DNA of 43,171 nt from Caulobacterales bacterium (lineage in GTDB: Bacteria > Pseudomonadota > Alphaproteobacteria > Caulobacterales > Caulobacteraceae): the NCBI GenBank assembly GCA_947474805.1, contig CANJKM010000004.1, positions 1-43,171 on the forward strand, given 5' to 3'. The notes under the pieces were generated by a model that was given only the letters and a program-made list of their open reading frames with translations, had not been told where the DNA came from and searched no databases. The position numbers and the translations under genes were made by a program. The stretch's first letter is position 1; each line of letters begins with the position of its first letter. Of the stretch, positions 12,622 to 18,535 are shown piece after piece.

Positions 12622-13269
12622 ATGACCGAAATCCTCATGCCCAAGGCGACCGCTGTCTGGCTGGTCGACAACACCTCCCTCACCTTCGAACAGATCGCCG
12701 CCTTCTGCGGTCTGCACCCGCTGGAAGTGAACGGGATCGCCGACGGGGAAGTGGCGCGCGACATCCGCGGCGCCGACCCGATCGCCAACGGCCAGCTGAA
12801 CCGCGACGAGCTGGAGAAGGCCGCCGCCGACCCGAAGTATCTGATGGTCGCCCAGAAAAGCCGTCACGCCGAACTGCTCAAGCCAGCGAAGAAGCAGCCG
12901 CGCTACACCCCGGTCTCGCGCCGCCAGGACCGCCCGGACGCCATCGCCTGGTTCCTGCGCAACCACCCGGAGATCACCGACGCGCAGATTTCCAAACTTC
13001 TGGGCACCACCAAGGCGACCATCGACCAGGTGCGCAACCGCCAGCACTGGAACGCCAGCAACATCAAGCCGGTCGATCCGGTGACTCTCGGTCTCTGCGG
13101 CCAGCTGGAGCTTGACGCCGTCGTCCGCAAGGCGGCCGACAAGCGCGCCAAGGACGACGCCAAAAAGGGCATCCTGCCGGAGGATCCGACCCTGCGCCCC
13201 GCGGCCGAAGCCGGCGTGGCCCCCGAAGAGCCTGAGGTCGAACTGGAGATGGATGACGAAGAGGACTGA
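12622..13269 (+). CDS. trcR: TrcR/DUF1013 family cell-cycle transcriptional regulator
   Basis: 215 aa. It opens with MPKATAVWLVDNTSLTFEQIA and has a first helix-turn-helix-like segment (LTFEQIAAFCGLHPLEVNGI) and a second one (TDAQISKLLGTTKATIDQVRN at about 113-133). The family's DAIAWFLRNHPEI and KPVDPVTLGLCGQ motifs follow, then an acidic tail rich in Glu/Asp. DUF1013 is conserved across alphaproteobacteria and is named cell-cycle transcriptional regulator TrcR in current family naming (from memory). It is cytosolic and DNA-associated by inference. A stable hairpin lies in the leader, and the DUF465 mini-gene converges on it 29 nt downstream. Confidence 0.88.
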   Translation: MTEILMPKATAVWLVDNTSLTFEQIAAFCGLHPLEVNGIADGEVARDIRGADPIANGQLNRDELEKAAADPKYLMVAQKSRHAELLKPAKKQPRYTPVSRRQDRPDAIAWFLRNHPEITDAQISKLLGTTKATIDQVRNRQHWNASNIKPVDPVTLGLCGQLELDAVVRKAADKRAKDDAKKGILPEDPTLRPAAEAGVAPEEPEVELEMDDEED

Positions 13270-13590: not shown

Positions 13591-16281
13591 CTACTGGACC
13601 GCGACCCGGGCGCCCGAAATCTGGGCGCGGTAGGCGGCGGCGCTGCGCTGGGCCGCCAACTGGGCCTCGGGGCTGAGCTTGGCCTTCAGCCGGTCGGCGC
13701 TGGTCTTGGACTCGGTGTCGCCGCCGGCGCCCGAGATCAGATACCATTTATAGGCCTCGGCCGGGTTCTGGGCCACGCCGTAGCCTTCCTCATAGAGGCG
13801 GGCGAGGTTGTACTGGCTGTCCTGCAGTCCGAGATCGGCGGCGCGGCGGAACCAGGTCGAGGCCGTCGTCGGGTTCTTTTCCCCACCCGTGCCCTCGAAA
13901 TAATAGAGGGCCAGGTTGTGCATGGCCTTTGGGTCGCCGCCCTGGGCGGCGCGCTCAGTCCAGCGGCGGGCCTCCGCCACGTCCTTCTTGATCCCCGCCG
14001 TGCCGCCTTCATAGAGCTTGGCCAGATAGAATTGGGCCTGGGCGTAGCCGAGGTTGGCCGCGCGGCGCAGAGCCTCGACCCCCGTGTAGTCGCCGCTCTC
14101 GATCTGACCGACGGCCTTGGAGTAGAGGGCCTTGGCCGAGCCGTCGACGGCGGGCTTGACCGCGGCGGCCGGTCCCGTCGCCGGGGCTGCGCCGGTGGCG
14201 ACCGACATGGCCGGCGCCGGTAGGGGCGCGACCTGATCCAGGCTGGCGGTCGGGGCCAGATCGGAGGTCGGCTCGCTCAGGGCCACCGCGGCCTGGACCG
14301 GCTGCTCGGCGCTCGCCGAGGAACCCGACAGGACCGGATCGCCGCTGGCCGAGGCCGTCTGTTGGGTTTCCGACTTCAGCAGGAAGCCGCCGACCACCAT
14401 GCCGGTGATGGCCATGGCGGTGGCCGAGGCGAGAAGCGCGGTGCGCAGGGTCGGCGCCGCGTCCTTCTTCTTCTTTTTCGGCAGACGGAAGCCCGAGAAC
14501 CGGCCGCCCTCGGACGGCGGCGCCGGCGTGTCCATCTCCGAGCGGACGCGGCGACCGCGGCCATCGGCGGCGGAGGCCTGGCGGGCCGCGGCGCGGGCGG
14601 CCTCGATCAGGTCGCGGTTCGGATTTGACGACGGCGGCGGGGCGAATGAGGCGGGCTCGGCCATGGCCGGGATCACGGGCGTGGGCGGCGGCGTGAAGGG
14701 AACCGGCGCCGGATCGAAGGCGGGGTCGGCCGCGGCGGCTTCGTGGGGAAGAGCAAAGGCGTCGGCGCCGCTCGGGAAACCGGAGCTGGCCGCGAAGGGG
14801 TCGTCCTCGAAGGCCGGTCCGGAGGCCTGTTCGAACACCGGCTCCTCGAAGGCGGCGGCGGCCGGGAAGGGATCCTGGCCCGATTGGGGCTCGGCCTGCA
14901 TGACGTCGGGGGCGCTCTCGCCGGGCTCGGAGGCGAATTCGGCGGGGGCGGCGGGGAAGGGGTCGAAGCTGACGGGTTGGGCCTGACTTTGGGCCGGGAT
15001 CACGCCGCCGCCCAGGAGGCCGAACTTGCCGCGCGCCTCCTCCAGCATCTTGGCGGTGCGCTCTTCGCTCTGACGGATGCGCTCGGCCAGATCGGTCGAG
15101 GCCCGCTCATAGCGGCTGTTGATCTTCTCGGTGACGCGCGCGACCTGGTCGCCGACGTCGTCGATGGCCTGGGCGGAGCGGCGCTCGGCCCCGGCGATGC
15201 GGTCGGCCAGCTTCTCGGCGATCCGGGCGATCTCGGTCCCGAGCTTTTCCAGCGCTTCGGCCTGGGCGCCGTCAGCGGCGCGCATCCGGCCCTCCATGGC
15301 GTCGGCGATCCGGGCCATCTCGCCCCCGACCTGCTCGACCATCTTGGCGCTGCGGCCCTCGACCGCCTGCACCCGGCCGCCGAGCGTCTGGGCGATCTTC
15401 ATCACTTCGCGGCCCATGCGGTCGACCGCCTGGGCCTGGCGCTTTTCGCCCGCTTCCACGTGGTCGGCCAGATTGCGCAGCGCCGCCTCCATCCGATCGA
15501 GCTTGCCGTCGGCCGCTTGCTTGAGCCGCTCGTTCATCTCGGCGCGGGTGGCTTCGACCTTGTCCGCCAGGTCGAGCGCCAGCCGTTCGAAACGCGACAC
15601 GGCCGGGTCGGCGTCCGGCGTCACGGCTCTAGCTTCGGTCGAGCTTATCCGGGCGTCCAGCCCCGCGAAGCCCGCCTCGAGCGATTTGATCGCATCGTGA
15701 GTCTTTGATTCAGCCGCTTCAAGCCGCGCCGCGAACCGCTCGATCACCTCCTCGGCGCCGCCCTGGAGGCGAGCGTCCAGCCGGTCGACGCGGCGGGTGA
15801 CGCCTTGGATGTCCTCACGCACCTCGTTGAAGCCGGCGCGGTTGCGGGCCTCGGTCTCGTGCATCTGGCCGGCGACCTTGCCGAGCGCGGCCTCCAGCGC
15901 CCGCATCGCCTCGGCGCGCGGCGCGTCGGCCTCGTCCATCCGCCGCAGCTTGTCGGCGATCTTGGCTTGAGCGTCCTTGACGTCCTGCAGATTGACGTCG
16001 AACCGGGCCGCGATCGAGGTCTGGTCGCGCTCGACCCCTTCGATCCGCGACAGCACGCCCATGACCGATTGATCGATGCCGGTGATGGCCAGGGTCGAGC
16101 GGTGCTCGGAGGCCTCGAGCCGGGCGGCGAGACTGTCGAGCACGGCGGCGATCCGCGCGACTTCCGAAGCGCTGTCGGCCCTGCCGCGTCGGAAGCTGTC
16201 GAGGGCGACGGGGCCCTGGGCGTGGGGGGCGGGAGGCTCCACGAAGGGCGGGGCGTCGCCCTCCCTGCCCTCGATGATCAT
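13591..16281 (-). CDS. podJ: PodJ-like polar localisation protein (intact ORF downstream of an amber codon)
   Basis: The open frame gives 896 aa. Residues about 1-420 are heptad-like helical coiled coil, then a Pro/Ala/Phe/Asp-rich disordered linker (about 425-600), a basic KKKKKD patch, one membrane helix (about 613-637, TALLASATAMAITGMVVGGF), a periplasmic low-complexity stretch, and Sel1-type repeats (about 705-850; AQFYLAKLYEGG, AMHNLALYYFEGTG, SQYNLARLYEEGYG). This is the PodJ architecture, although the C-terminal peptidoglycan-binding domain of Caulobacter PodJ is absent. PodJ organises the new cell pole and recruits PleC and pilus factors (family knowledge). The true family N-terminus lies upstream in frame but is cut off by TAG at 16294-16296; this ORF begins at the first ATG after it, with no obvious ribosome site. 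Either the gene reinitiates here, is read through, or is damaged. Confidence 0.8.
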   Translation of the reverse strand: MIIEGREGDAPPFVEPPAPHAQGPVALDSFRRGRADSASEVARIAAVLDSLAARLEASEHRSTLAITGIDQSVMGVLSRIEGVERDQTSIAARFDVNLQDVKDAQAKIADKLRRMDEADAPRAEAMRALEAALGKVAGQMHETEARNRAGFNEVREDIQGVTRRVDRLDARLQGGAEEVIERFAARLEAAESKTHDAIKSLEAGFAGLDARISSTEARAVTPDADPAVSRFERLALDLADKVEATRAEMNERLKQAADGKLDRMEAALRNLADHVEAGEKRQAQAVDRMGREVMKIAQTLGGRVQAVEGRSAKMVEQVGGEMARIADAMEGRMRAADGAQAEALEKLGTEIARIAEKLADRIAGAERRSAQAIDDVGDQVARVTEKINSRYERASTDLAERIRQSEERTAKMLEEARGKFGLLGGGVIPAQSQAQPVSFDPFPAAPAEFASEPGESAPDVMQAEPQSGQDPFPAAAAFEEPVFEQASGPAFEDDPFAASSGFPSGADAFALPHEAAAADPAFDPAPVPFTPPPTPVIPAMAEPASFAPPPSSNPNRDLIEAARAAARQASAADGRGRRVRSEMDTPAPPSEGGRFSGFRLPKKKKKDAAPTLRTALLASATAMAITGMVVGGFLLKSETQQTASASGDPVLSGSSASAEQPVQAAVALSEPTSDLAPTASLDQVAPLPAPAMSVATGAAPATGPAAAVKPAVDGSAKALYSKAVGQIESGDYTGVEALRRAANLGYAQAQFYLAKLYEGGTAGIKKDVAEARRWTERAAQGGDPKAMHNLALYYFEGTGGEKNPTTASTWFRRAADLGLQDSQYNLARLYEEGYGVAQNPAEAYKWYLISGAGGDTESKTSADRLKAKLSPEAQLAAQRSAAAYRAQISGARVAVQ

Positions 16282-16416
16282 CTGATTCAGCCACTAGCCC
16301 AGGGTCATGCCCTGCCGGCGCGCCAAGTCCTTGGCCAGTTCGCGCGCCTTGGGATCAATTCCCTTGACGCTCCAGGGTCCGGCCGCCGACGACATGGTCC
16401 GAATCACACGCTCCAC
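16282..16416 (-). pseudogene. podJ: Interrupted 5' end of the podJ-like gene with in-frame TAG
   Basis: Read on the minus strand from the GTG at 16416 (GGGAGG 8 nt upstream) or the ATG at 16395, this encodes MSSAAGPWSVKGIDPKAREL, then AKDLARRQGMTLG, a TAG at 16294-16296, then WLNQ and the ATG that opens the 896-aa ORF. The PWSVKGIDPKARE and GMTLGEWLN motifs mark the conserved PodJ N-terminus, and Glu (GAG) is expected at the TAG, so one G-to-T change explains it. Frame is kept on both sides. Read-through from the ATG would give 934 aa. Confidence 0.85.
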
Positions 16417-16478
16417 TACCCGGTCCTCCCAGGTGATATTGGATGCTAGCCGTCCAGGTGTTGCGTGTAAACGCGACG

Positions 16479-16864: not shown

Positions 16865-18535
16865 TTACCGGTTGGACGAAGTCGAACCGGGCGAGGTCCT
16901 TTGGCCACGCCGGGCCAGACCGGCCATACCGCCCGAGGTGAGCAGGCTGGCGTCGGCCATCAGCAGCGGGATCGACCATTTGTGCGGGGCGGCGATATAG
17001 CGGGGCTCCCAGGCCGGATCGTACTTGGCCTTGTAGCGGCGCACGCCCTGGAAATTGTAGAATTCCTCTCCACGCTCGAACATCAATCGCCCGACGCGCG
17101 ACATCAGCGGGGATAGCCGCCGGCCCTCCAGCCCCGCCAGGGGGGCCGAGCCGAAGGAGAAGGCCTCATAGCCCTCCCTCTGGCCCCAGAGCAGCAGCTC
17201 GACGAACAGGAAGTCCATGATGTTCTTGGGCGCCTCTTCGCCGTAGCGCATCAGGTCCATCGAGAAGACCGCCTTGTCGGCCGTCGGCCAGAGGGTGGCG
17301 AAGGCGGCGAGCTCTCCATCGACCCAGACCAGGGCGCAGGGGAATTCGGTGACATAGGCCTCCGAGAACCCGCCCATGGCGAAGCTCTTGTCGCCGCCGG
17401 CGTGGGTCTCCAGCCAGGCGTCGGACACCCGCTTCAGCTGCGGCGTCAGATCGGCCACGGTTTCAGGTCCGACCACCTCGAACACGGCGCCGGCTTCGGA
17501 GGCGCGGCGCCAGTTGCGGCGCAGCACCTCGCGTTTGCGCCCGGCCATGGAGAAGTCGTCGAGCGCCAAGGCGGCGGTCTCGCCGATCTTCTGGATCGCC
17601 AGCCCCATCTCGACCACTTCGGGGAGGAGGTCGGGCCCGACGCCATAGATCCCCTTGCGGGCGGCATGGACATGGGCCAGCTCGCGGAAGCGCCACAAGA
17701 GCTCCATCCGCTCCGACCGCTTGCCGACCGGCGGGCCGAGCGCGATCCAGGAGCGGCCGCGCACCCCGAACATCAAGAAGCTCTCGCCGCTTTCGGAAAA
17801 CAGGAAGCGCTTGTCCCCCAGCAGGGCGAGGTTGGCCTCGGGTTCCGGCTCCTCGGCGCTCGCCAGGATCGCCCGCACCCTGTCGAAGTCCGGGTCCTTG
17901 TCGCCGATCACCTTGGGGGTGTGGGGCGTGGCGACGAGCCGCCAGACCCCTATGCACAGCAGAGCCAGCGCCAGGCCCGTAAAGGCGCGGAGCGTCCGAG
18001 AAGCGTCGGCGTTGGCCATCAGCCGCCACCAGAGCTCGTCCGAATAGGCCACGTCGCGAAACGACCAGAGGGCGAGCACGCCCGCGCCCGCCGCGATAGC
18101 GAAGGCCGAGGCCATCCAGCCGGGCGTCACCTCCAGGTTCATCAGCCGCGCCTTGCGGGTGAAGGCCGCGCGCAGCGGAACCAGCAGCAGGCAGAGCAGG
18201 GCGAGAGCCGCCGTCTCCTCCCAGTTGAAACCCTTGAGCAGCGCCAGCACCGCTGCGACGGCCGACAGGAAGATCGCGCCCCACCAGGCCGCCCCGACCC
18301 GACGTCGCAGGCCGTCGGCCAGGAGCAGCAGGAGCAGGCCGATGATCGAGGAGGCGAAGTGGCTGGCGTTGATCAGCTCGGGAGGGGCCAATTGGAACAA
18401 CCAGCCGAACCGGTCGACCTCATTGGGCGTCGCGCCGGAGATCAGCAGCATGGCTCCGGCGGCGAAGGTCGCGGCGGCGGACCCGGCGGGGGCCAGCTCG
18501 CGCACGGCGGGTTTCAGCCCTCCAAACAACGACAT
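16865..18535 (-). CDS. mprF: MprF-like aminoacyl-phosphatidylglycerol synthase (DUF2156) with short membrane domain
   Basis: 556 aa. About six membrane helices (residues 18-210) are followed by a cytosolic DUF2156/LPG-synthase C domain (about 220-540) that has FLMFGVRGRSWIALGPPVG near its start, then IMDFLFVELLLWGQREGYEA, FSFGSAPLAGLE and FYNFQGVRRYKAKYDPAWEPRY, hallmarks of the tRNA-dependent aminoacyl-PG synthases. Such enzymes transfer Lys or Ala from aminoacyl-tRNA to PG, reducing surface negative charge. Full-length MprF has about 850 residues and up to 14 helices, so the flippase part is reduced here, as is common in proteobacteria. No acvB/virJ partner is adjacent. It is divergent from the SDR gene. 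Confidence 0.87.
   Translation of the reverse strand: MSLFGGLKPAVRELAPAGSAAATFAAGAMLLISGATPNEVDRFGWLFQLAPPELINASHFASSIIGLLLLLLADGLRRRVGAAWWGAIFLSAVAAVLALLKGFNWEETAALALLCLLLVPLRAAFTRKARLMNLEVTPGWMASAFAIAAGAGVLALWSFRDVAYSDELWWRLMANADASRTLRAFTGLALALLCIGVWRLVATPHTPKVIGDKDPDFDRVRAILASAEEPEPEANLALLGDKRFLFSESGESFLMFGVRGRSWIALGPPVGKRSERMELLWRFRELAHVHAARKGIYGVGPDLLPEVVEMGLAIQKIGETAALALDDFSMAGRKREVLRRNWRRASEAGAVFEVVGPETVADLTPQLKRVSDAWLETHAGGDKSFAMGGFSEAYVTEFPCALVWVDGELAAFATLWPTADKAVFSMDLMRYGEEAPKNIMDFLFVELLLWGQREGYEAFSFGSAPLAGLEGRRLSPLMSRVGRLMFERGEEFYNFQGVRRYKAKYDPAWEPRYIAAPHKWSIPLLMADASLLTSGGMAGLARRGQRTSPGSTSSNR

Follow-up and report, generated by a model that had tools for sequence, protein, structure and literature searches.

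In Caulobacter crescentus, PodJ has been described with a C-terminal peptidoglycan-binding domain, it does not gather at the pole when residues 1-249 (including coiled coils 1-3) are removed, and it is still functional as an N-terminal YFP fusion (PMC8980812). The coiled coils CC1-3 of PodJ promote condensate formation (PMC9684454). In the literature, we found no test of a PodJ missing just its first 38 residues. The window analyzed here, the whole stretch of 43,171 nucleotides, is contig 4 of a 285-contig MAG from an environmental sample (82% complete, 3.1% contamination, 68% GC), and its minus strand carries a podJ-like gene with an amber codon within the frame. The first-pass annotation had reported this in-frame TAG, and our reading of the minus strand confirmed both the stop and its coordinates; the strand runs ...GGC ATG ACC CTG GGC TAG TGG CTG AAT CAG ATG ATC..., with the TAG at 16296-16294. 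From ATG 16395 onward the frame encodes MSSAAGPWSVKGIDPKARELAKDLARRQGMTLG, followed by the TAG and then by WLNQMIIEG and the 896-aa ORF. Upstream of the TAG the frame is open past 16437, and downstream it is open to the TAG at 13593-13591, giving 896 aa from ATG 16281. The parts of the gene and its neighbors are given below.

16393..16395, minus strand: conserved start ATG of the podJ-like gene, lining up with the starts of 28 relatives
16273..16395, minus strand: conserved N-terminal module PWSVKGIDPKAREIAKDLARRxGMTLGEWLNQMI, likely ribbon-helix-helix-like, with the TAG inside the second predicted helix
16294..16296, minus strand: amber TAG, in frame, in place of a conserved Glu codon (residue 34 with ATG 16395 as the first)
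13591..16281, minus strand: 896-aa ORF with a coiled-coil region, a disordered Pro/Ala-rich region, one hydrophobic helix and three Sel1 repeats; terminator TAG
16865..18535, minus strand: neighboring gene for a phosphatidylglycerol lysyltransferase C-terminal domain protein (PF09924, E 2.8e-88)
12622..13269, plus strand: TrcR-family cell-cycle regulator adjoining the podJ-like gene (PF06242, E 2.2e-61)

The earlier assignment of the gene as PodJ-like stands on full-length homology to Caulobacterales PodJ-like proteins. The identity is 55% over residues 2-947 to the protein of genome G027 and 54% to that of G012, and homologues of about 40-55% identity are found in Caulobacter and Phenylobacterium (named loci) and in other Caulobacterales. 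Pfam detects three Sel1 stretches (E 2.7e-23), and these C-terminal Sel1/TPR-type repeats are placed after the membrane helix, a hydrophobic segment read off the translation. The conserved N-terminal module is present at the protein start but is split by the TAG. Because Pfam gave no match to a peptidoglycan-binding domain at the C-terminus, we name the protein PodJ-like and not PodJ. A search of the MAG for PopZ yielded no match, which carries no information given a completeness of 82%.

Around the TAG, conservation is high, with 19 of 50 alignment positions invariant in 29 sequences, and on these grounds the TAG breaks a genuine coding sequence. All 28 aligned relatives carry Glu, rarely Asp, at the equivalent codon, which agrees with the earlier proposal that the codon is normally Glu (GAG) and that one G>T change accounts for the TAG. 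We searched 390 genomes of the family with exact patterns and found the sense form in 332 and the stop in one, the window; many relatives contain ATGACCCTGGGCGAGTGG, which is the window DNA with G for T, so that a single base separates the podJ-like gene from the family DNA at this pattern. When 398 genomes of the order were searched with a profile, the stop appeared only in the window among the matches listed. A TAA in G027 was rejected, since it is located upstream of the G027 start codon and outside the gene. Compared over 44 codons with the nearest N-terminus (L010), the window has 11 synonymous and four non-synonymous differences, the TAG being one of the four. The upstream segment is still under protein-level constraint, and the change to a stop would therefore be recent. 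The genomes compared included no second genome of the window's genus, the closest DNA being 74% identical. We conclude that the TAG is very probably an isolated nonsense change (GAG to TAG at codon 34) that is confined to this assembly, in a podJ-like gene intact in all other respects, and that it is neither programmed nor decoded.

The first-pass annotation had also proposed that a strong GGGAGG ribosome site still serves the upstream start. The motif is indeed present, but it sits before an alternative start, GTG 16416, whereas the relatives start at the equivalent of ATG 16395. The initiation signals of the gene are as follows.

16425..16430, minus strand: GGGAGG, 8 nt before the alternative in-frame start GTG 16416-16414
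16411..16414, minus strand: GGAG, likely the Shine-Dalgarno of ATG 16395, at a spacing of about 15 nt
16279..16281, minus strand: ATG at which translation may restart, 12 nt beyond the TAG, with a weak Shine-Dalgarno (-4.8 kcal/mol)

The GGAG lies nearer to the start codon in many relatives than in the podJ-like gene of the window. The predicted anti-Shine-Dalgarno pairing is -9.4 kcal/mol for ATG 16395 and -10.2 kcal/mol for GTG 16416, as against only -4.8 kcal/mol for the restart ATG 16281; a pairing as good as that of ATG 16281 is found at 33% of the internal in-frame ATGs of the same genome.

We sampled 1.07 Mb of the MAG as stretches, comprising 0.91 Mb of coding DNA. A homology scan used the codon-usage-selected genes of a complete relative, chosen since all long ORFs brought in antisense shadow ORFs, and among the 285 shared genes (82,811 codons) the podJ TAG was the sole in-frame stop flanked on either side by conserved sequence, while no frameshifts were found in the same genes; the MAG is thus not grossly error-ridden. 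A reference-free coding-potential scan of the 1.07 Mb revealed at least five other stops, likewise isolated and in frame, each interrupting a Pfam domain when read through.

L125 1835, minus strand: TAG in a Cu P-type ATPase
L090 2158, minus strand: TAG in a xanthine/uracil permease
L121 9807, plus strand: TAG in a PAS histidine kinase
L104 15371, minus strand: TAG in an SLT transglycosylase
L132 14026, minus strand: TAA in a cytochrome b561

Candidate stops lying between neighboring genes (e.g., L122 14145) or without a domain spanning them were left out of the count. The resulting rate of about six stray stops per 0.9 Mb of coding DNA is a lower bound, since the scan has low sensitivity. With the codon usage of this genome, random substitutions would produce TAG in 67% of new stops, GAG>TAG being the leading route (17%), and five or more TAGs among six stray stops have P 0.35. 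A GGC codon precedes three of the five premature TAGs, that of podJ included (post hoc P 0.005), for which we offer no explanation.

The first-pass annotation had listed error, mutation, restart and readthrough as candidate explanations. The list was the right one, except that readthrough or recoding is disfavored by the presence of RF1, by the use of TAG as a terminator, by the failure to find a UAG-reading tRNA and by the five or more further stray stops in unrelated genes. Whether the strain sampled has truly acquired this mutation recently or the MAG carries a consensus error is, in our view, close to evenly balanced, and the sequence data here cannot separate the two. A base-call, assembly or strain-mixture error, with G as the true base and an intact gene, has nearly an even chance of being correct, and the podJ-like gene would then be normal. 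It is favored by the draft state of the MAG (285 contigs) and by the single base that differs from the family DNA; taken all as errors, the six stray stops within the 0.91 Mb of coding DNA would amount to a substitution error rate of roughly 2.5e-4 per base, and shared genes free of frameshifts are what a substitution-type error predicts. The count of one affected gene among 285 conserved genes argues against it.

A real recent nonsense mutation is a serious candidate as well, though somewhat short of an even chance, with PodJ either lost or N-truncated via restart at ATG 16281. If the TAG is real, the ribosome would stop on RF1 after 33 residues, and re-initiation at ATG 16281 may yield a smaller amount of an N-truncated PodJ of 896 aa, which would keep the coiled coils, the membrane helix and the Sel1 repeats; both the re-initiation and its level are our inference. 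The in-frame ATG 12 nt past the stop and the intact frame downstream are consistent with such a mutation, and so is the nature of the six stray-stop genes, which, going by their families, look dispensable and not housekeeping. On the other side, the restart site is weak, and the density of stops is too low to tell mutation from error.

Amber suppression or stop-codon recoding, which would give full-length PodJ, is very unlikely. Five of the six premature stops are TAG, three of them behind GGC, and TAG ends 43% of the genes against 17% in the relative G011; moreover, a suppressor tRNA could be missing from a MAG of this completeness. An excess of TAG among the stray stops was nevertheless rejected as a sign of recoding, as it matches the 67% expected by chance. 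TAG is heavily used as a terminator, closing 382 of 893 genes with the podJ-like gene among them, and three release-factor-domain proteins were found, one of which, on contig C1, has the PAT motif typical of RF1, and we take it to be RF1. The anticodon CTA was found in none of the 35 tRNAs detected in the MAG, one weak partial match being left without an anticodon. Among the relatives, the in-frame TAG at the podJ site is not conserved (1 of 390). The permease and transglycosylase stops presumably fall at family Gln and Trp residues (by motif reading) and the podJ stop at Glu, so that no single suppressor or inserted residue would serve them all. A partly read podJ amber, giving the full-length protein along with a form lacking the N-terminal module (from restart at ATG 16281) in a ratio set by termination, is a shade more improbable still. 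Least probable of all is an arrangement in which this lineage has the upstream segment as a short gene of its own, with 16281 as the regular start of the large ORF. Other alphaproteobacteria do carry the same module in short ORFs beside a long ORF, but the product here would be 33 residues without the module's second helix, none of the relatives in the family has a stop at this position and the restart signal is weak.

Irrespective of how the stop arose, the module that it splits is likely of ribbon-helix-helix-like fold, as suggested by a combination of individually weak lines from modeling and profile comparison. The structure prediction of the module gives helices at 15-28 and 32-41, with the strand unassigned in the monomer and a mean pLDDT of 68. 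Pfam matches to the module are weak (DUF6290, NikA-like and MatP_C, E about 0.1), and about 22 of 50 Foldseek matches are of ribbon-helix-helix fold (Arc, CopG, MatP, PutA, NikA and antitoxin structures), none with E below 1. Aligning the module by hhalign with four ribbon-helix-helix proteins gave a probability of 56; the sequences of these four targets were confirmed as matching the Arc, CopG, PutA and NikA entries. Searching the PDB with a profile of the module returned nothing significant, and our literature search found no paper on the module or describing it as a ribbon-helix-helix domain. We know of no report of DNA binding by PodJ. In other alphaproteobacteria, we observed clusters in which a longer ORF has two or three short ORFs as neighbors, all with the PodJ N-terminal module.

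G504:C5:176654-177614: module cluster
G531:C7:190729-191952: module cluster
G525:C60:110617-112312: module cluster
G540:C68:15167-16869: module cluster
G553:C2:248989-250236: module cluster
G515:C4:38736-39773: module cluster

The module is also present in plasmid-borne proteins, 75-123 aa long, of Acetobacter, Komagataeibacter and Palleronia.

L217:3001-3372: small plasmid module protein
L218:1330-1686: small plasmid module protein
L219:3019-3246: small plasmid module protein

The significance of the podJ amber for decoding is small, as the same draft genome contains several stray stops of this kind. It does emphasize the caution to be exercised with gene starts in MAGs, as a gene caller would annotate the 896-aa protein without the conserved N-terminal module. 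Should the mutation prove genuine, the strain would offer a natural experiment on PodJ function in the absence of this module. The more useful by-product is the module itself, which looks ribbon-helix-helix and is found also in small stand-alone proteins.

In comparison with known systems, the podJ stop resembles the isolated nonsense alleles, or the consensus errors, of draft MAGs in its single-base change, in the otherwise intact frame and in the several independent instances within one assembly, and no feature in the present data sets it apart from them. No single match of the module to the ribbon-helix-helix proteins (Arc, CopG, PutA, NikA and MatP) is significant, whereas the helix positions agree. 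With the polar scaffold PodJ of Caulobacter, the podJ-like protein shares the cytoplasmic coiled coils, the disordered region, the single membrane helix and the C-terminal Sel1/TPR-type repeats, and its gene differs in the in-frame TAG at codon 34.
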